Assembly: GCF_001999725.1 (NCBI RefSeq)
Contig: NZ_MDDP01000043.1
Span: forward strand, 62,001-126,000
DNA from: Cellulophaga omnivescoria
GTDB lineage: Bacteria; Bacteroidota; Bacteroidia; Flavobacteriales; Flavobacteriaceae
DNA length: 64,000 nucleotides
Reading direction: 5' to 3'
Positions 39,044-48,138 of the stretch are shown here, piece by piece (the first letter of the stretch is position 1; every line of letters starts with the position of its first letter). Below the pieces are notes generated by a model. That model made no database searches and was not told the DNA's origin. It saw nothing but the letters and a program-made list of their open reading frames with translations. The position numbers and the translations under genes are program-made.

Positions 39044-40807
39044 ATGAAAAAATTATACAAAGTTTTTATTTTTTGCCTTTTAGTTCATTTATCTAATAAT
39101 CTACTTGGTCAACAAAATTACAAAACCAAAAGTGTTTCAAATGCTTTAAAAGAACAAGTCTATATTCATTACAATTCTAATTTACTGTTTGTTGGTGAGT
39201 ATGCACATTATACAATGTATTGTACATATTTAAAAAATCAAAAACCTAGTGAAATCAGCAAAATTGGTTATGTTGATTTAATAGGGGAAGGTAATAAAGT
39301 TGTTGTTACTCAAAAAGTTTTTTTAAAAAATGGTATTGGTAGAGGAGATTTTTTTATACCAACTTCTGTTGCTAGTGGAAACTATAAAATTATTGGTTAC
39401 ACAAGTTGGATGAAAAATAACAAAGTGTCAGCATTTTTTTCAGGAGACATAATTATTATTAATCCTTATCAGGAAAACCAAAATATAAACTTTGTTTCAA
39501 AAACAAATATGCCTTCTAATACAGTAAAGTTTATTGGTGAAAATTTAAATAAAGGAGATTTAAATATAGAGTTTTCTAAAAATGCATACAACAAAAGGGC
39601 AAAAGTAACACTGCAACTATTTCCAGAACAAAAACATATAAACGGTACTTATTCTTTATCTGTTCATAAAACTAATGCAATTGTTTTAAATTCTCAGGAA
39701 TATTCTAATAATTACAATTCCTTTAAGGATGAGATTAATCCATACGTACTGCTAAAAGAAGAAAAAGATATTACTTTACCAGAATTACGTGGAGAAATTA
39801 TAGAGGGCAATATACAATCAATTAGTGATTCTATACCAATTAATAATATTTCGGTTTGTATCTCTATACCAAGCAAAAAAGGATATTTTTTTAAAAATTC
39901 TAAAACTAATAATTTGGGTGAATTTAAATTTATTATAGATAAAGAATACGATACCTCAAAAGCAATTATACAAGTATTTAATAAAAATAAAGAAAATTAC
40001 ACCATAAATATTAACAATCCTAAACCTGTAAATTTATCATCTCTAACCTATAAAAATCCGTCAATTCCTTTTTCCGCAAATAAAGAAATTAAAAAAAGAA
40101 GTATTCACAATCAAATAGAGAATGCATATTTTGAGCTTAAACCGGATTCTATTTTGGTAAAAGATAAAATTTTGCAATTTACTACAGAAAATAAACTTAC
40201 TTACCAGTTAGATGATTATACTCGTTTTAAAACAGTAAAAGAAACATTGGTAGAAATAGTAAATAATGTCTGGTCTAAAAAAATTGGCGATGATAAATAT
40301 ATTTTCCAAGTTAGAATGGTAAATAGTAATAATGATTATTTTGATTATTCTAATATTAAAGCACTTGTAATTGTTGATGGTATTATGGTTCAGGATCATA
40401 CAATACTAATGAATTATGATGCTAGAAATATAGATACTATTAGTATAGTAAGGAATAAGTATGTATATGGTGAGGAAATTTATGAAGGAATAATAGAAAT
40501 TAATACAAAAAAAGGAGATTTTAAATTGCCTTACTCTAGTTTAGGTATTTTAAATTATAGCTTATCTCCTCCAACAAAACATTTAATCTATTATAAACCT
40601 GATTATGATAATTTAGAAAATAAAAAAAATATTCCAGATTTAAGATATCAATTACTTTGGCAACCATATATTAGTTTTGATACTAAAAACATTAAGAAGA
40701 TAGAGTTTTACACATCAGATATTACAGGAGAATTTAAAGCAACTCTAAGAGGATTTACCAATGAGGGCGAAGACGTTTTTTTTGAAAAATATTTTACGGT
40801 AAATTAA
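39044..40807 (+). CDS. Secreted MG2/carboxypeptidase-like domain protein
   Basis: This 587-residue protein has a signal peptide (MKKLYKVFIFCLLVHLSNNLLGQ). It contains a macroglobulin MG2-like domain (about 35-145), seen in LLFVGEYAHYTMYCTYLKNQ and IGRGDFFIPTSVASGNYKII. A further immunoglobulin-like or carboxypeptidase-regulatory domain (about 245-325) has the segment NNLGEFKFIIDKEYDTSKAI. The C-terminal third (about 390-500) resembles the plug-like piece of TonB-associated proteins (VIVDGIMVQDHT). It lacks a beta barrel. It is the last gene of the operon, 12 bp after DUF4249. It may be a soluble or surface partner of the receptor. No terminator is evident after it. Confidence 0.78.
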   Translation: MKKLYKVFIFCLLVHLSNNLLGQQNYKTKSVSNALKEQVYIHYNSNLLFVGEYAHYTMYCTYLKNQKPSEISKIGYVDLIGEGNKVVVTQKVFLKNGIGRGDFFIPTSVASGNYKIIGYTSWMKNNKVSAFFSGDIIIINPYQENQNINFVSKTNMPSNTVKFIGENLNKGDLNIEFSKNAYNKRAKVTLQLFPEQKHINGTYSLSVHKTNAIVLNSQEYSNNYNSFKDEINPYVLLKEEKDITLPELRGEIIEGNIQSISDSIPINNISVCISIPSKKGYFFKNSKTNNLGEFKFIIDKEYDTSKAIIQVFNKNKENYTININNPKPVNLSSLTYKNPSIPFSANKEIKKRSIHNQIENAYFELKPDSILVKDKILQFTTENKLTYQLDDYTRFKTVKETLVEIVNNVWSKKIGDDKYIFQVRMVNSNNDYFDYSNIKALVIVDGIMVQDHTILMNYDARNIDTISIVRNKYVYGEEIYEGIIEINTKKGDFKLPYSSLGILNYSLSPPTKHLIYYKPDYDNLENKKNIPDLRYQLLWQPYISFDTKNIKKIEFYTSDITGEFKATLRGFTNEGEDVFFEKYFTVN

Positions 40808-40823: not shown

Positions 40824-40853
40824 TTGTCAATAAATAAAATTTTTTTAATATTG
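40824..40853 (+). promoter_or_regulatory. Candidate promoter of the ilv leader transcript
   Basis: TTG (40824-40826), a 19-bp spacer and TAATATTG (40846-40853) fit the Bacteroidota promoter with a single mismatch in the -7 box (ATTG for TTTG). The predicted start (about 40857-40861) is almost at the leader ATG (40862), implying a nearly leaderless leader-peptide mRNA. Confidence 0.45.
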
Positions 40854-40861
40854 CTATAACA

Positions 40862-40921
40862 ATGAAAGCAAACAATATAATTATTATCGTATTAGTCATT
40901 ATTATCTCTCTCGGGGGATGA
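40862..40921 (+). CDS. ilvL: ilv operon leader peptide (Ile/Val/Leu-rich, 19 residues)
   Basis: The 19-codon ORF encodes MKANNIIIIVLVIIISLGG and stops at TGA (40919-40921). Seven of its codons are Ile, two Val and two Leu, the hallmark of a regulatory leader peptide for branched-chain amino acid operons. It lies 295 bp before ilvD, on the same strand, immediately upstream of a terminator and an alternative antiterminator. When charged Ile/Val/Leu tRNA is scarce, a ribosome stalling on the Ile run would leave the bases from 40918 onward free to form the antiterminator. When supply is ample, a ribosome reaching the stop codon would cover them. It is far too short for normal gene finders. The symbol follows the E. 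coli convention only. Confidence 0.85.
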   Translation: MKANNIIIIVLVIIISLGG

Positions 40922-40959
40922 TGCGGTCTTATATTGATTTTAAGAAAAGCCTGTGTCAT
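40918..40959 (+). promoter_or_regulatory. Candidate antiterminator hairpin of the ilv attenuator
   Basis: ATGATGCGG (40918-40926) pairs with CCTGTGTCAT (40950-40959), including wobble pairs and one bulged T. TCTTA (40927-40931) pairs with TAAGA (40941-40945). The 5' arm contains the leader peptide stop codon. The 3' arm uses the same bases as the 5' arm of the terminator, so the two structures cannot coexist. Confidence 0.65.
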
Positions 40960-40985
40960 ACTAAAATTGACACAGGCTTTTTTTT
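40945..40985 (+). terminator. Attenuator terminator of the ilv operon
   Basis: A 14-bp perfect stem, AAAAGCCTGTGTCA (40945-40958) with TGACACAGGCTTTT (40968-40981), has a 9-nt loop and an eight-T run. It lies 23 bp after the leader peptide stop and well before ilvD. It ends no full gene and is therefore a regulatory terminator. Confidence 0.88.
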
Positions 40986-41216
40986 GTTTTTAACGTAACT
41001 AAAACCATAATACATTTAAACTATTAAAGTAAATAAAATAGCTGAATGTGATACATTTTAAGGTTTTAAAACACTGAATATCAGATTTTTAAATAAATAT
41101 ATGGTGAGTTGAATTTATACTAAAAAACATTGTTAAAAAAATGAAGAAAGTGAAAGAATTATATTTGAATAGTAAATTATATTCAATAAACAATAAGAAT
41201 TACAAGATATAGCCAA
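40986..41216 (+). promoter_or_regulatory. Gap between attenuator and ilvD, with a possible internal promoter at 41160-41167
   Basis: This AT-rich stretch holds no ORF. TATATTTG at 41160-41167 is an exact TAnnTTTG match 50 bp before ilvD; a TTG at 41130 gives a long 27-bp spacer. If used, this promoter would bypass the attenuator and give basal ilv expression. The 14-bp TTATATTTGAATAG here (41159-41172) is identical to the one before the TonB operon. Confidence 0.35.
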
Positions 41217-42893
41217 ATGGAGTTAAATAAGTACAGTAAAAATGTAACACAAGATCCAACACAACCTGCAGCACAAGCAATGTTGTACGGTATAGGTTTT
41301 AAAGATGAAGATTTTAATAAACCTATTGTGGGTATTGCAAGTACTGGTTACGAGGGTAATCCGTGTAATATGCATTTAAATGACTTGGCTAAAGAAGTTA
41401 AAGAAGGTGTAAATACAAACGAGTCTGTTGGTTTAATATTTAATACTATTGGCGTAAGTGATGGTATTTCTATGGGTACACCAGGAATGCGCTTTTCATT
41501 ACCTTCAAGAGACATTATTGCAGATTCTATGGAAACTGTGGTACAAGGTATGTCTTATGATGGTTTGGTAACCGTTGTAGGTTGTGATAAAAATATGCCA
41601 GGTGCTCTAATGGCAATGATTCGTTTAAATAGACCATCTATTTTAGTTTATGGGGGTACAATTGCTTCCGGTTGCCATAATGATAGAAAACTAGATATTG
41701 TTTCTGCGTTTGAAGCTTGGGGAGAAAAGGTAGCTGGCACAATGCAGCAAGAGGAGTTTGGTTGTATCATTAAAAAAGCAATACCTGGTGCAGGTGCTTG
41801 TGGTGGTATGTACACAGCAAATACAATGGCTTCTGCTATAGAGGCGTTGGGTATGTCTTTACCATACAATTCTTCTAATCCTGCAATTGGTAAAGAAAAA
41901 AAACAAGAGTGTGTAGAGGCTGGTAAGCAAATGTATCATCTACTTAAAAATGATATTAAACCTTTAGACATTGTTACCAGAAAATCATTAGAAAATGCTA
42001 TTCGCCTAGTTACAATTATGGGTGGTTCTACTAATGCAGTATTACACTTTTTAGCTATCGCAAGAGCAGCAGATATAGATTTTACGCTTCAGGATTTTCA
42101 AAAAATTAGTGATACCACACCTTTTATTGCAGACCTAAAACCTAGTGGTAAATATTTAATGGAAGATGTACACCGTATTGGTGGTATTCCGGCTGTGTTA
42201 AAATATTTATTAAAAAACGGATTATTACACGGTGACTGTTTAACTGTTACTGGTAAAACATTGGCAGAGAATTTAGAAAATGTGCCAGATTTAATAGAGG
42301 GACAAGATGTTATTCGTCCTCTAGAAAATCCAATAAAAGCAACAGGCCACTTACGTATGCTGTACGGTAATTTGGCAGAAAATGGTTCTGTAGCAAAAAT
42401 TACAGGTAAAGAAGGATTATTATTTAAAGGTACAGCTAAAGTTTTTAATAGTGAGTATGATGCTAATGATGGTATTAGAGATGGTAAAGTTAAAAAGGGA
42501 GATGTAGTCGTCATTAGGTACGAGGGACCAAAAGGCGGACCAGGAATGCCAGAAATGCTTAAGCCAACAGCTGCAATTATGGGTGCTGGTTTGGGTAAAG
42601 ATGTAGCCTTAATTACAGACGGTCGTTTCTCTGGAGGTACGCACGGTTTTGTTGTAGGTCATATTGCGCCAGAAGCCCAAGACGGTGGTACTATTGCTCT
42701 TGTAAAAGACGGTGATATTATTACAATAGATGCAGAAACTAATGCTATTAATGTAGATGTTACACCAGAAGAATTGGCTAAACGTAAAGCTAATTGGGTG
42801 GCTCCAGAATTAAAATTTAAAAAAGGTGTATTGTACAAGTACGCTCGTTCAGTATCATCTGCAGCCCAAGGTTGTGTTACAGATGAGTTTTAA
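41217..42893 (+). CDS. ilvD: Dihydroxy-acid dehydratase
   Basis: This Fe-S enzyme of 558 residues dehydrates 2,3-dihydroxy-3-methylbutanoate and the methylpentanoate analogue to the 2-oxo acids of valine and isoleucine. Visible are the N-terminal AMLYGIGF and GNPCNMHL with the first cluster cysteine, [14 protein letters not shown] with the second, [15 protein letters not shown] with the third, and the C-terminal [19 protein letters not shown]. It is full length. It is the first structural gene of the ilvDBNCA operon, downstream of the attenuator. Confidence 0.97.
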
Positions 42894-42968: not shown

Positions 42969-44708
42969 TTGAAAATGGAAACAGTAAAAGAACAAAAGAC
43001 AACATCAAAAAATAATAAAACCATAAAAATTAGTGGAGCAGAAGCTATTATACATTGTTTATTAGCAGAGGGTGTAGATTTAATTTATGGTTATCCGGGT
43101 GGAGCAATTATGCCTGTTTATGACGAATTATACAAGTTTCAAGATAAACTAACACACATTCTTACTCGTCATGAGCAAGGAGCAACACACGCTGCACAAG
43201 GTTACGCAAGAGTTTCTGGTAAAGTAGGTGTTGCTATGGCAACTTCTGGTCCGGGAGCAACAAATTTGGTTACAGGATTGGCAGATGCCCAAATAGATTC
43301 TACTCCTATGGTATGTATTACAGGCCAAGTTCCAAGACATTTATTAGGTACAGATGCTTTTCAGGAGACTGATATTATAGGAATTTCTACTCCTGTAACC
43401 AAATGGAATTACCAAGTTACCAGAGCAGAAGAAATCCCAGAGATATTAGCAAAAGCCTTTTACATTGCCAGGTCGGGTAGACCAGGACCAGTACTTGTAG
43501 ATATTACCAAAAATGCACAGTTTGATGAGTTAGATTTTACTTATGAGGCTTGTACAGGTGTACGAAGTTATAATCCGTATCCTAAAGTAGATGTTAACCA
43601 ACTTAAAGCTGCTGCAGATTTAATAAATTCAGCAAAAAAACCATTTATAGTATTTGGTCAAGGTGTAATTTTAGGAGAAGCAGAAGAGCAATTAAAGAAG
43701 GTTATAGAAAAAACCGGTATTCCGGCTGCTTGGACAATTTTAGGTGTTGCAGCTTTAGATAGTGAACACCCTTTAAATGTTGGTATGGTTGGTATGCACG
43801 GTAATTATGCGCCTAATGTTTTAACTAATGAGTGCGATGTTCTAATTGCTATTGGTATGCGTTTTGATGATCGAGTAACAGGTAATTTAGATAGCTATGC
43901 TAAACAGGCTAAAATTATACATTTTGATATAGATCCGGCAGAAATAAACAAAAATGTTCCTACGGATGTTGCTGTACTGGGTAATGCTAAAGAAAGTTTA
44001 GAGGCTCTAATTCCGCTATTAAATAATAATAAGCATACAGATTGGCACAATGTCTTCAAAGAAAAATATCAATTAGAGTATAGCACAGTTATAGAAAAAG
44101 ATATTCATCCTACTAAAGAAAAATTAACAATGGGTGAGGTTATAGAGCAAATAAATGTTGCCTCTAATAACAGTGCCGTTATTGTTAGTGATGTTGGTCA
44201 GCACCAAATGATAGCTTGTAGATATGCTAAATTTAACCAGACAAAAAGTAATATTACTTCTGGTGGTTTGGGTACTATGGGCTTTGCTTTACCTGCGGCT
44301 ATAGGTGCAAAAATGGGAGCAATGAATAGAGAAGTTGTTGCAATAATAGGAGATGGAGGTTACCAAATGACAATACAAGAGTTGGGCGTAATTTTTCAGC
44401 ATAACGTACCTGTAAAAATTATTGTTTTAAATAATGATCATTTAGGTATGGTACGCCAGTGGCAAGAGTTATTTTTTGATAAAAGATATGCGTCTACAGT
44501 AATGGTAAACCCAGATTTTGTAAAAATAGCAGAAGGGTACCATATAAAATCTAAACGAGTAAGTGAGCGTAGTGAGTTAAAATCTACTATAGAAGAAATG
44601 TTAGCTTCTAAAGATCCTTATTTTTTAGAGGTTAAAGTAGAAAAAGAAGATAACGTTTTTCCTATGATTCCTTCGGGTGCTTCAGTATCAGAAGTTAGGT
44701 TAAAATAA
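42969..44708 (+). CDS. ilvB: Acetolactate synthase large (catalytic) subunit
   Basis: This ThDP- and FAD-dependent enzyme condenses pyruvate with pyruvate or 2-oxobutyrate, the committed step to Val/Leu and Ile. The 579 residues show GAEAIIHCLLAEGVDLIYGY, the catalytic Glu in LTRHEQGATHAAQGYAR, the central FAD domain (about 200-340) and the ThDP motif GDGGYQMTIQELG...NNDHLGM (about 460-495). It needs the IlvN subunit encoded 59 bp downstream for feedback control. Confidence 0.96.
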   Translation: MKMETVKEQKTTSKNNKTIKISGAEAIIHCLLAEGVDLIYGYPGGAIMPVYDELYKFQDKLTHILTRHEQGATHAAQGYARVSGKVGVAMATSGPGATNLVTGLADAQIDSTPMVCITGQVPRHLLGTDAFQETDIIGISTPVTKWNYQVTRAEEIPEILAKAFYIARSGRPGPVLVDITKNAQFDELDFTYEACTGVRSYNPYPKVDVNQLKAAADLINSAKKPFIVFGQGVILGEAEEQLKKVIEKTGIPAAWTILGVAALDSEHPLNVGMVGMHGNYAPNVLTNECDVLIAIGMRFDDRVTGNLDSYAKQAKIIHFDIDPAEINKNVPTDVAVLGNAKESLEALIPLLNNNKHTDWHNVFKEKYQLEYSTVIEKDIHPTKEKLTMGEVIEQINVASNNSAVIVSDVGQHQMIACRYAKFNQTKSNITSGGLGTMGFALPAAIGAKMGAMNREVVAIIGDGGYQMTIQELGVIFQHNVPVKIIVLNNDHLGMVRQWQELFFDKRYASTVMVNPDFVKIAEGYHIKSKRVSERSELKSTIEEMLASKDPYFLEVKVEKEDNVFPMIPSGASVSEVRLK

Positions 44709-44767: not shown

Positions 44768-45295
44768 ATGGAAAATAATTGGTATACCATATCGGTTTAT
44801 TCAGAAAACAACGTAGGGTTGTTAAACAGAATATCGGGCATATTTTTAAAACGACATATTAATATTGAGGCTTTAAATGTTTCTAAATCAGAAATTAACA
44901 GTGTTTCTAAATTCACTATTGTTGTAAACACAACAGAAAAATGGGTGCAGAACATTGTTGGTCAAATTGAAAAACAAGTAGAAGTAATTAAGGCTTTTTA
45001 TCATAACGATGAAGAAATTATTTATCAAGAATCTGCTTTATTTAAAATTAAGTCAGATTTATTATTTGATGAACGTAATATTCAAAACATAATTAAAGAA
45101 AACAACTCGCAAATTGTAACGGTGGCCAGAGATTTTTTTGTGATTTCTAAATCAGGAAAAAGAGAAGAAATAAATAAAATGCATGACCAGCTAGAACCTT
45201 ACGGTATTATGCAATTTGTACGTTCTGGTAGAATTGCAGTGAGTAAAGCAGAAATGCGTATTAGTAGCTTATTAGAAGAATTTCAACATAATTAA
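44768..45295 (+). CDS. ilvN: Acetolactate synthase small (regulatory) subunit
   Basis: This 175-residue subunit activates IlvB and confers valine feedback inhibition. The N-terminal ACT domain (about 5-80) starts YTISVYSENNVGLLNRISGI, with the glycine-turn and the RHINIEALNVS strand. The C-terminal half (about 85-165) is the ALS small-subunit domain (LFKIKSDLLFDERNIQNIIK, then EINKMHDQLEPYGIMQFVRS). It lies between ilvB and ilvC on the same transcript. Confidence 0.95.
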   Translation: MENNWYTISVYSENNVGLLNRISGIFLKRHINIEALNVSKSEINSVSKFTIVVNTTEKWVQNIVGQIEKQVEVIKAFYHNDEEIIYQESALFKIKSDLLFDERNIQNIIKENNSQIVTVARDFFVISKSGKREEINKMHDQLEPYGIMQFVRSGRIAVSKAEMRISSLLEEFQHN

Positions 45296-45341
45296 TTAAT
45301 CATTCTCAGTTTAGATATTGAGAGAAAAAAGAGTACAGAAA

Positions 45342-46817
45342 ATGTCAAATTATTTTAACACCTTATCATTAAGAGACAAATTAACCCAATTGGGTAAATG
45401 TAGATTTATGGATACTACAGAATTCTCTGATGGGGTAACAGCATTAAAAGGCAAAAAAATAGTAATTGTTGGCTGTGGAGCACAAGGTTTAAATCAGGGT
45501 TTAAATATGAGAGACTCTGGATTAGACATTTCTTATGCTTTGCGTGATGCTGCTATAAATGAAAAAAGAGCATCGTACAAAAACGCAACAGAAAATGGTT
45601 TTACTGTTGGTAATTATGAAGAATTAATACCAACGGCAGATTTAGTAATCAATCTTACACCAGACAAACAGCATACAAATGTTGTAAATACGGTAATGCC
45701 GTTAATGAAAAATGGTGCTACACTTTCATATTCTCACGGTTTTAATATTGTTGAAGAAGGCACCCAAGTGCGTAAAGATTTAACCGTAATAATGGTAGCT
45801 CCTAAGTCTCCAGGATCTGAGGTTCGTGAGGAGTATAAAAGAGGTTTTGGTGTGCCAACACTTATTGCTGTGCACCCAGAAAATGACCCAGAAGGTAAAG
45901 GTTTAGCACAAGCAAAAGCATATGCTGCTGCAACTGGAGGTCATAAGGCGGGTGTTTTAGAATCTTCTTTTGTAGCAGAAGTAAAGTCAGACCTTATGGG
46001 AGAACAAACTATTTTATGTGGTTTATTGCAAACAGGATCTATTCTTTGTTTTGATAAAATGGTTGAAGAAGGTATTGATGCTGGCTACGCATCTAAATTA
46101 ATACAATACGGATGGGAAACTGTTACAGAAGGTCTTAAATATGGTGGAATTACTAATATGATGGATCGTTTGTCTAACCCAGCTAAAATAAAGGCTTTTG
46201 AATTGGCTGAAGAGCTAAAAGATATTATGCGTCCGTTATTCCAGAAACATATGGATGATATTATGGAAGGTGAGTTCTCTAAAACTATGATGGAAGACTG
46301 GGCTAACGGAGATAAAAACTTGCTAGATTGGCGCGCTGCTACAGGAGAAACTAATTTTGAAAAAACTCCTGCTGGTGATGTAGAAATTTCTGAGCAAGAA
46401 TTTTATGATAATGGTGTGTTAATGGTTGCTATGGTTAGAGCAGGTGTAGAGCTTGCTTTTGAAGCAATGACAGAATCTGGTATTATTGCAGAATCTGCAT
46501 ATTACGAGTCGTTACATGAAACACCACTTATTGCCAATACAATTGCCCGTAAAAAGTTATTTGAAATGAACAGAGTAATTTCGGATACTGCAGAATATGG
46601 TTGTTATTTATTTGATCATGCTTGTAAGCCTTTATTAAAAGATTTTATGGCTAAAGTAGATACCTCTATTATTGGCAAACCATATGCTGCAAACGCAGGT
46701 AATGGTGTAGATAATGCTAAATTAATTGCTGTAAATAAAGCATTAAGAGAGCATCCGGTAGAAATTGTTGGAGCAAGATTAAGAGCATCTATGACTGCAA
46801 TGAAACCTATAGTGTAA
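45342..46817 (+). CDS. ilvC: Ketol-acid reductoisomerase, class II (long form)
   Basis: This enzyme isomerises and reduces acetolactate and acetohydroxybutyrate with NADPH and Mg2+. The start at ATG 45342 is preferred: it gives [20 protein letters not shown] and 491 residues, the E. coli class II length. The upstream TTG at 45318 adds eight unlikely residues. The Rossmann motif is [18 protein letters not shown]. Two tandem knotted C-terminal domains follow, with metal-ligating acidic residues in [14 protein letters not shown] (about 207-220) and further Glu/Asp later. A terminator lies between it and ilvA. Confidence 0.96.
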
Positions 46818-46887: not shown

Positions 46888-48138
46888 ATGAATTATTTCC
46901 CAAATATAGAAGATATAAAAAATGCTGCACAAACCATAAGTGCAGTGGCAGATGTAACCCCTTTGTTAGAGAGTATCCGTTACTCTAAATTATTTAATAC
47001 AAATATCCTTTTAAAAAGAGAAGATTTACACCGTGTTAGATCTTATAAAATTAGGGGAGCATTTAATAAAATTAGCTCTTTAAGTAATAAAGAAAGACAA
47101 AAAGGTGTTGTTTGTGCTAGTGCAGGCAATCACGCTCAAGGTGTAGCATTTGCGTGTAACCATTTAGGAATTAAAGGCACAATTTATATGCCATCGGTTA
47201 CGCCAAAACAAAAGGTAGAGCAAACAGAAATGTTTGGTGGAGATTGGGTTACTATTGTTTTAGAAGGTGATACTTTTGACGATTCTTCTAAAGCTGCTCT
47301 TCAATTTTGTGAAGAACACCAAAAAGTTTTTGTACACCCTTTTAACGATCCAAAAACTATAGAGGGGCAAGCTACTGTTGGTTTAGAAGCCATTCATCAA
47401 TCTAAAAAACCAATAGATTATATTTTTGTGGCTATTGGCGGTGGTGGTTTAGCTGCTGGTTTATGTGGTGTTTTTAAAGCGTTATCTCCTACTACTAAAA
47501 TTATAGGAGTAGAGCCTGCTGGTGCACCATCTATGAAAACTAGTATAAAAAACGGAGTAAATACAGAACTAAAAGATATAGATAAATTTGTTGATGGTGC
47601 TGCAGTACAGCGCGTGGGCGATTTAACTTTTAATATTTGCAAGCAGTATTTAGACGATGTTATTACTGTGCCCGAAGGTAAAGTATGTCAAACTATTTTA
47701 GACTTGTACAACAGAGATGCTATTGTTGTAGAACCTGCGGGAGCTTTAACTATTGCAGCATTAGACCAATATGCAAAACAAATAGAAGGCAAAAATGTGG
47801 TTTGTGTTGTAAGCGGTAGTAATAATGATATTACAAGAACTGCAGAAATTAAAGAACGTGCTTTGTTATTTGCCAATTTAAAGCATTACTTTATAGTGCG
47901 TTTTCCGCAACGTCCTGGTGCTTTAAAAGAGTTTGTTGCAGAAATTTTAGGACCAACAGATGATATTACTCATTTTGAATATTCTAAAAAATCTAGTAAA
48001 GAAAATGCTCCTGCTGTAGTTGGTATAGAGTTAAAAAAACCTGAGGATTTAAAGCCATTAATTGCTAGAATGAAAGAAAATAATTTCTTTGGCGACTACT
48101 TAAATAATAAACCAGACCTGTTTCAATATTTAGTATAA
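46888..48138 (+). CDS. ilvA: Threonine ammonia-lyase (biosynthetic threonine dehydratase)
   Basis: This PLP enzyme of 416 residues converts threonine to 2-oxobutyrate and ammonia, the first committed step to isoleucine. The PLP lysine is in VRSYKIRGAFNK (about Lys54), the glycine loop is in GGGGLAAGLCG, and the serine in SGSNNDI is near the cofactor. The C-terminal region (about 325-416) is one ACT-like regulatory domain (HYFIVRFPQRPGALKEFVAE), shorter than in the 514-residue E. coli IlvA. It follows the ilvC terminator with an ATG 7 bp beyond the T tract. Confidence 0.93.
   Translation: MNYFPNIEDIKNAAQTISAVADVTPLLESIRYSKLFNTNILLKREDLHRVRSYKIRGAFNKISSLSNKERQKGVVCASAGNHAQGVAFACNHLGIKGTIYMPSVTPKQKVEQTEMFGGDWVTIVLEGDTFDDSSKAALQFCEEHQKVFVHPFNDPKTIEGQATVGLEAIHQSKKPIDYIFVAIGGGGLAAGLCGVFKALSPTTKIIGVEPAGAPSMKTSIKNGVNTELKDIDKFVDGAAVQRVGDLTFNICKQYLDDVITVPEGKVCQTILDLYNRDAIVVEPAGALTIAALDQYAKQIEGKNVVCVVSGSNNDITRTAEIKERALLFANLKHYFIVRFPQRPGALKEFVAEILGPTDDITHFEYSKKSSKENAPAVVGIELKKPEDLKPLIARMKENNFFGDYLNNKPDLFQYLV

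Follow-up and report, generated by a model that had tools for sequence, protein, structure and literature searches.

The ilvDBNCA Locus and Its Leader Region

The window analyzed in this study, that is, the whole stretch of 64,000 nucleotides from Cellulophaga omnivescoria, harbors the genes ilvD, ilvB, ilvN, ilvC, and ilvA on its forward strand, preceded by a short leader region (Table 1). The nearest named relative of the ilvD gene was found in Cellulophaga fucicola. Upstream of the leader, a gene on the same strand (39044–40807) ends 55 nt before a 19-codon ORF, whose product MKANNIIIIVLVIIISLGG comprises 7 Ile, 2 Val, and 2 Leu residues; on re-reading, the coordinates and counts were the same as those given by the original prediction. 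The operon ilvDBNCA is, hence, preceded by a short ORF with many codons for the amino acids that it produces.

Between the leader ORF and ilvD, an intrinsic terminator was identified from sequence and fold, and termination is predicted at this site. Its stem extends from approximately 40942 to 40984, comprises 17 positions including the A-U ends, and encloses a loop of 9 nt; the core GCCTGTGTCA/TGACACAGGC (40949–40958/40968–40977) is followed by the previously described run of eight T residues (40978–40985). A terminator scan with a prediction tool found none, probably because it allows loops of 3–8 nt only. The alternative hairpin that had been claimed to overlap the stop codon and the terminator arm was also recovered (2:3 in Table 1), with additional pairs possible, as read from the sequence, between 40927–40931 and 40941–40945, matching the longer arms originally proposed. 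The leader stop codon is located inside strand 2 of this antiterminator. In the predicted fold, antiterminator and terminator are mutually exclusive, and a ribosome residing at the stop codon would mask an antiterminator arm. A third helix, 1:2, had not been part of the original prediction; its 5′ arm falls within the last Ile codons of the leader ORF.

Table 1. Features of the ilvDBNCA leader region and operon in the window (all on the forward strand).
Feature	Position	Strand	Basis or remark
TTG, possible −33 element of P1, 19 nt before the −7 box	40824–40826	+	weak element, predicted from sequence
TAATATTG, −7 box of P1	40846–40853	+	predicted transcription start about 40857–40858
Leader peptide ORF MKANNIIIIVLVIIISLGG	40862–40921	+	ATG start, stop TGA 40919–40921; translated ORF
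Regulatory codons Ile ×4, Val, Leu, Val, Ile ×3	40877–40906	+	sequence
1:2 (pause/protector) hairpin	arms 40900–40909 and 40914–40923	+	masked folding and comparison of relatives
2:3 antiterminator	arms 40919–40926 and 40951–40958	+	folding, comparison of modules
3:4 intrinsic terminator	40942–40985	+	sequence, fold, scan, relatives
Conserved DNA box GCTGAATGTGATA	41042–41054	+	possible regulator site
Conserved DNA box CTGAATATCAG	41074–41084	+	possible regulator site
Conserved DNA box GTTGAATTTATA	41108–41119	+	possible regulator site
TATATTTG, −7 box of putative P2	41160–41167	+	start about 41171–41172, predicted from box position
ilvD, dihydroxy-acid dehydratase	41217–42893	+	
ilvB, acetolactate synthase large subunit	42975–44708	+	
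ilvN, acetolactate synthase small subunit	44768–45295	+	
ilvC, ketol-acid reductoisomerase	45318–46817	+	
ilvA, threonine ammonia-lyase	46888–48138	+	

Folding of the leader together with the terminator yielded a z value of −5.6, none of 200 shuffles being equally good. With both strands of the window searched, the scanner, which reports Ile/Leu/Val-rich ORFs combined with a terminator, detected a single ilv module and no tandem, versus two modules in 40 dinucleotide-shuffled windows. The terminator scored 35.8, and terminators scoring ≥30 numbered five in the real window and one in all shuffles. This comparison flatters the result, since the shuffled windows hold far fewer terminators (1.5 per strand versus 13 in the real window), and the comparative evidence is the stronger part of the support for the module.

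The folding of both states that had been suggested earlier was carried out with masked ribosome footprints, the footprints being estimates made in the present analysis, and the expected switch was obtained. In naked RNA up to position 40960, the 1:2 hairpin formed (0.91), whereas with a ribosome on Ile13 or Ile15 the 2:3 antiterminator formed (0.95), and with a ribosome at the stop codon neither of the two was present. For the full-length RNA, the terminator won in every masked state (P = 0.99), and the switch must therefore be kinetic; dominance of the terminator after synthesis of strand 4 is what kinetic attenuation would lead one to expect.

Occurrence of Leader Modules at Related Loci

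To evaluate the prevalence of the leader, 101 distinct ilvD upstream regions were compiled from 30 loci of relatives' genomes and the best 80 loci from named genomes, with L024 (its match stops short of the gene start) and eight duplicates removed before the scan. A leader module was present at 68 of these loci, namely the 67 scan loci minus the spurious L066, plus L007 and L011, which were added by eye and whose leaders appeared poor in Ile/Val codons. Single modules were assigned to type A (39 loci; terminator GCCTGTATC), type B (15 loci; GCCTTCC), and type C (one locus), while ten loci featured a B-then-A tandem and three a C-C tandem. The original prediction expected the leader to be conserved upstream of ilvD and named homologous leaders lacking the ORF or the terminator as evidence against it. 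Conservation with Ile/Val runs held for the 68 loci, but the remaining 33, some of them close relatives and two with <300 nt upstream, carried no module in the DNA examined; we read these as losses.

On an IlvD tree computed by a quick method, with 34 of 98 inner branches open, the attenuator was found at 15 of 17 same-genus loci and at all three Zobellia loci. Module types clustered on this tree, with the B-A tandems distributed over several separate lineages (at least five changes, three of them forced by starred branches). This scatter is compatible with an old tandem that was followed by losses, without proving it. Upstream of the ilvD gene of L018, where the scan reported no module, a 1:2-like stretch and strand 2 were seen by eye, giving the appearance of a decayed attenuator.

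Leader peptide sequences varied widely between loci apart from their Ile/Val content. In 79 modules, Ile and Val accounted for 30.5% and 13.5% of the residues, respectively, compared to 7.5% and 7.2% in seven window genes, and Leu was not enriched (7.1% versus 8.3%). Moreover, Ile/Leu/Val modules were detected at none of 30 leuA-family loci of relatives, just four of which (L137–L140) are of the 500-residue type found in the window, and the scanner reported no such module at the leuCDAB-like operon of the window (60704–55972, minus strand; leuA named by search, the other genes by eye). A general leucine leader was therefore rejected, and the signal is taken to be Ile/Val. Among the Val codons, GTC had a share of 48% in the ilv leaders versus 9% in the corresponding ilvD genes; at 58 of 64 loci, the leader had the greater share. 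The only Val tRNA anticodon seen in the draft genome was UAC (30 of 33 Rfam tRNA matches examined). Slow reading of GUC in the leaders is possible; nothing was built on it, because GTCAT is also able to pair in an alternative 1:2 register.

To determine how far the element extends beyond the genus, a covariance model was built from 28 type A sequences, with the ORF start and the promoter lying outside the model. In the own genome, it gave a single strong match of 83.6 bits, the next scoring 42.4 bits. A search of 199 family genomes, each representing another genus and the window's own being included, was followed by examination of the best 29 other loci. Of these matches, 25 were located before ilvD, three before ilvE-ilvD (the naming of ilvE rests on L097 and on tblastn with L097), and one (L300) before neither, so that the model marks ilvD operons at high score. 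An Ile/Val/Leu-rich ORF (≥5 of 10 residues) ended in place at all 28 ilvD or ilvE-ilvD matches, at least two of which (G018, a Zobellia, and G028) overlap with the training set. At E ≤ 0.01, 98 of the 199 genomes had a match, the weak matches including ordinary terminators and opposite strands; only one of the six matches in the own genome is the ilv element. In the wider class, a candidate was printed for 17 of 34 ilvD regions, about ten of them being leader-like by eye.

Covariation Analysis of the Three Helices

Covariation was analyzed in an alignment of 38 type A sequences. Identical rows were left out of it, as were L051 and L055, whose terminator arm was not parsed, and L057, which lacked an anchor. 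In helices 1:2 and 3:4, 96.4% of the cells were paired, compared to 33–43% in slid controls, and 50 double-change cells were counted versus 15.3 in shuffles. Two stricter measures were weaker than these cell counts: seven pairs showed two-sided change (four in 1:2 and three in 3:4) versus 4.8 in shuffles, with 27 of 500 shuffles as high, and 19 further pair types were observed versus 18.3, with 226 of 500 shuffles as high. The own pairs of 1:2 amounted to −11.4 kcal/mol versus −8.6 (sd 0.3) for re-dealt strands (n = 46), re-dealing ignoring relatedness.

The antiterminator 2:3 was paired at 96.1% in type A (slid partners 19–57%), its variation being by wobble only; no two-sided change was found within this type, and shuffles were uninformative. 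Over 79 modules, the own pairs of 2:3 scored −10.1 versus −7.5 (sd 0.28) when re-dealt, a procedure that again ignores relatedness, and −5.2 when strand 2 was shuffled. Outlying scores were those of L056 (−3.3) and L096 (−2.7), as cut by the script. When strands were re-dealt inside one type, the own-partner advantage held for type B, and the difference was not significant inside type A or type C (p = 0.14 and 0.22, respectively). Support for 2:3 consequently comes from the across-type comparison, which may reflect few events, and from type B. The expectation of covarying pairs in both hairpins was, thus, borne out by compensatory changes in the terminator, and in 1:2 in addition; for the antiterminator it did not hold within type A, and the co-variation of the antiterminator and terminator arms became apparent across types and within type B.

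Putative Promoter P1 and the Predicted Start of the Leader RNA

In Flavobacterium psychrophilum, the −7 box is described to occupy positions −12 to −5 (PMC9723704), and a spacing of 4–5 nt from the box has been described for F. johnsoniae (PMC6847099). Judged from the position of the −7 box of P1, the leader ATG of the window is predicted to be preceded by a 5′ UTR of only 4 nt. Among the ilv modules that do not immediately follow another module, 60 of 68 had an [ACT]AnnHTTR box ending 3–12 nt before the ATG, as did 20 of 23 his leaders and 10 of 11 trp leaders (L173 being excluded); the controls were 1 of 11 tandem second modules, 8 of 43 long window ORFs, 388 of 3000 random positions, and 513 of 3639 ATGs present in these regions. 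The misses include L021, whose start was set at an inner ATG, as well as the second modules of L026 and L100, which begin >60 nt past the first terminator and are counted within the 68. When the box was forced to end in G, the values were 50 of 68 for ilv, 0 of 11 for second modules, 3 of 23 for his (his boxes mostly end in A), and 10 of 11 for trp, with 0 of 43 window ORFs and 158 of 3000 random positions as controls. In the new genera, the box was found at 16 of 28 loci, or at 15 of the 22 without a terminator just upstream.

Of the 60 first leaders with a box, 57 had a predicted 5′ UTR of 0–6 nt; where several boxes were present within 3–12 nt, the one nearest to 6 nt was taken, which favors short predicted leaders. 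Start codons were mostly situated 4–10 nt behind a TAnnTTTG-like box, and the leaders are therefore predicted to be near-leaderless. Just 5.5% of the mRNAs examined were leaderless in F. psychrophilum (PMC9723704), and 87% of the predicted leaders exceeded 10 nt in F. johnsoniae (PMC6847099), which would set the attenuators apart. The near-leaderless start is, as predicted from the box positions, the most unusual feature of the ilv attenuator.

Sister leaders with the same predicted arrangement were identified in this genome. Before hisG (L156), a His-run leader MRNKNTHHHHFTPCYQAS has a −7-like box 7 nt before its ATG, and before trpE (L167), a WWW leader MKITTNIWWWNNLRQTS has one at 5 nt. The trp leader matched the Rfam family Bacteroid-trp (RF01692) with 65.8 bits; for the his leader, no Rfam family reached the gathering score. 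All 23 hisG loci (own included) had a His leader, and of the 30 trpE-family loci, several of them weak matches, 12 had a Trp leader. In the wider class, where hisG was present in 66 of 149 genomes, a His-run leader with terminator was found at 29 of 40 hisG upstream regions examined, covering 16 families.

Tandem Modules

Two complete Ile/Val-rich leader/terminator modules in series were carried by 13 relatives before ilvD or ilvE-ilvD (L070, L072, L082, L088, L089, L097, L102, L104, L105, L106, L108, L026, and L100). In 11 of them, the ATG of the second module lies 15–24 nt past the first terminator and 75–84 nt past the first stop codon. A promoter-like box was, as a rule, located only before the first module, 10 of these 11 second modules having no −7 box of their own. 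A terminator just upstream was also found at 6 of the 28 new-genus model hits. Upstream of a trpE relative (L173), two WWW leader ORFs near terminators, with starts 133 nt apart, form a possible tandem trp attenuator.

A Putative Second Promoter Upstream of ilvD

Between the attenuator and ilvD, the block at 41042–41167 looks like a second promoter (P2) with sites for a DNA-binding regulator. From 5′ to 3′, it is composed of three boxes spaced at steps of approximately 33 nt, namely TGAATATGRTA, TTGATNATCA in flanking TTAA, and TTGAATTTA, followed by TTAAAA and TAnnTTTG. Over the 101 loci, 48 copies of the exact TAnnTTTG motif were counted between −60 and −51 relative to ilvD, compared to 0–2 copies in each of the other 10-nt bins within 250 nt of the gene. 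A looser motif was present at −64 to −50 in 55 of 101 loci, compared to 3.8% of background windows; the 46 loci without it belong largely to the Winogradskyella, Tenacibaculum, and Aquimarina side. Five loci (L016, L018, L036, L044, and L045) keep a P2-type box without an attenuator. RNAalifold found no RNA structure in the conserved block of 50 sequences, which is a weak test, as column-shuffled controls also gave 0; we treat the block as DNA sites. Since a second TAnnTTTG box occupies a constant position in about half of the loci, attenuator-free ones among them, only one of two promoters is probably gated by the attenuator, which is probably not the sole gate of the operon, but likely one of two inputs.

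Proposed Mechanism and Alternative Explanations

The anatomy of the leader, its position before the operon, its occurrence at related loci, the covariation, and the computed switch all support the ilv-type attenuation control of ilvDBNCA that the original prediction had proposed. The element is very probably a ribosome-mediated attenuator that senses charged Ile- and Val-tRNA and gates readthrough from P1 into the operon. The RNA would start about 4 nt before the leader AUG, and a ribosome could load immediately at its 5′ end, no Shine-Dalgarno sequence being needed. If Ile- or Val-tRNA is short, this ribosome would be expected to stall on the regulatory codons and cover strand 1, leaving strand 2 free to pair with strand 3, so that the terminator is blocked. 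If tRNA is plentiful, the ribosome would reach the stop codon inside strand 2 and block this strand, and the terminator 3:4 would form. In an untranslated leader, 1:2 would form, and the terminator would follow.

The simplest alternative is that the hairpin and its T-run merely terminate transcription of the upstream gene, which lies on the same strand and ends shortly before the ORF, and that the Ile-rich ORF arose by chance, Ile codons being favored in A+T-rich DNA. This is scarcely credible, given that 28 of the best 29 matches from other genera are followed by ilvD or ilvE-ilvD and have the ORF, although ORF start and promoter are both outside the model, that the compensatory changes in 1:2 would be needless for a plain terminator, and that a −7 box is placed between the upstream gene and the ORF. 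The leader peptide is very hydrophobic, and the ORF might, hence, encode a functional small (membrane) peptide, with the RNA being its own short mRNA; terminated leader RNAs can indeed act in trans, as described for rnTrpL/peTrpL of Sinorhizobium meliloti (PMC7298713). We consider this very improbable, as the peptides diverge save for their Ile/Val content, in contrast to the RNA helices around the stop codon, which co-vary, and as His and Trp runs take the place of the Ile/Val codons in the hisG and trpE leaders of this genome.

Terminator/antiterminator logic is also common to ligand riboswitches, T-boxes, and protein-binding leaders. The conserved parts are, however, the Ile/Val codons, the strands around the stop codon, and the terminator, with no other conserved core seen, and no family of Rfam release 15 matched the window at its gathering score, the best sub-threshold match by bits being Thr_leader (28.8 bits versus a cut-off of 55); control of such a type in place of the ribosome is, therefore, highly improbable. 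Of greater weight, though still rather unlikely, is a role of the attenuator that is real but minor, with most transcription coming from P2, perhaps under a DNA-binding regulator acting at 41042–41119. The TAnnTTTG peak at −60 to −51, the lack of a consensus RNA structure in the upstream conserved boxes, weak as that test is, and the five attenuator-free loci with a box would agree with such a presumed share of P2. Against this, P2 is predicted only, the looser motif is missing from this position at 46 of 101 loci, and the presence of the attenuator at most same-genus loci and in Zobellia implies that it should matter in some condition.

Ribosome-mediated attenuation provides a conserved, testable switch in Bacteroidota, where initiation proceeds without Shine-Dalgarno pairing. 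As the switch needs a ribosome close behind RNA polymerase, it could serve as a natural reporter of transcription-translation coupling in this phylum, and the double Ile/Val modules of relatives would allow testing whether serial gates sharpen the response. Our confidence is evenly balanced on a wider reading, according to which the ilv, his, and trp leaders of Flavobacteriaceae start at or near the 5′ end and load the ribosome at once without a Shine-Dalgarno sequence, and an old ilv double gate of two serial Ile/Val-sensing attenuators stood behind one promoter, lineages such as Cellulophaga having kept the second module alone, with the promoter directly before it.

Comparison with Known Attenuation Systems

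The ilvGMEDA, ilvBN, leu, and thr attenuators of enterobacteria encode a leader peptide with a codon run, have the stop codon in an antiterminator arm, and form three mutually exclusive helices with an intrinsic terminator. The Cellulophaga leader has the codon run, the stop codon position, the three helices, and the terminator in common with them, but no sequence kinship was seen apart from the sub-threshold Thr_leader match, in agreement with the original statement that it is unrelated to the E. coli leader. It also differs in that its AUG is predicted 4 nt from the 5′ end, that a promoter-like box follows the attenuator ahead of the first gene, and that this first gene is ilvD. Furthermore, Shine-Dalgarno use is not expected in Bacteroidia (PMC9976891), and hence not for this leader.

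An AUG at the very 5′ end of an attenuator RNA is likewise known from S. meliloti trpL (PMC7298713); that case concerns an alphaproteobacterial trp leader, whereas in Cellulophaga this layout is predicted for three operons (ilv, his, and trp) within a single genome. A leader with two consecutive leader ORFs has likewise been described for the tandem attenuators of Salmonella mgtCBR, termed a singular example by the authors (PMC3641672). The mgtCBR signals differ from each other (ATP and proline), while the Flavobacteriaceae tandems are Ile/Val-rich in both modules. No case of tandem attenuators sensing the same amino acid twice was found in the open-access text searched, the matches pointing to Mg2+ transporters.

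Within the phylum, Bacteroid-trp (RF01692) is also a leader-peptide RNA (Weinberg et al. 2010, PMC2864571); it belongs to the tryptophan operon and is not matched by the ilv element. For F. psychrophilum, a member of the same family as Cellulophaga, strong indications were presented that amino-acid operons are controlled by leader-peptide attenuation, with structured 5′ regions that include hisG and pheA (PMC9723704); the relevant text of that article makes no mention of ilv, near-leaderless leaders, or tandem modules. Long 5′ UTRs with leader-peptide-like ORFs were described for Bacteroides thetaiotaomicron (PMC7366714). The main text of Naville and Gautheret 2010 (PMC2965389) contains no word beginning with Bacteroid or Flavobacter. 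Among open-access texts on leader-peptide attenuators naming Flavobacterium, the sole match concerns Staphylococcus. Attenuator candidates from Bacteroidetes/Chlorobi are reportedly listed by Vitreschak et al. 2004. Given the Bacteroid-trp match and the clues from F. psychrophilum, leader-peptide attenuation is not new to the phylum, and the ilv leader very likely represents a conserved example of a known mechanism, little described in Bacteroidota and featuring unusual details.
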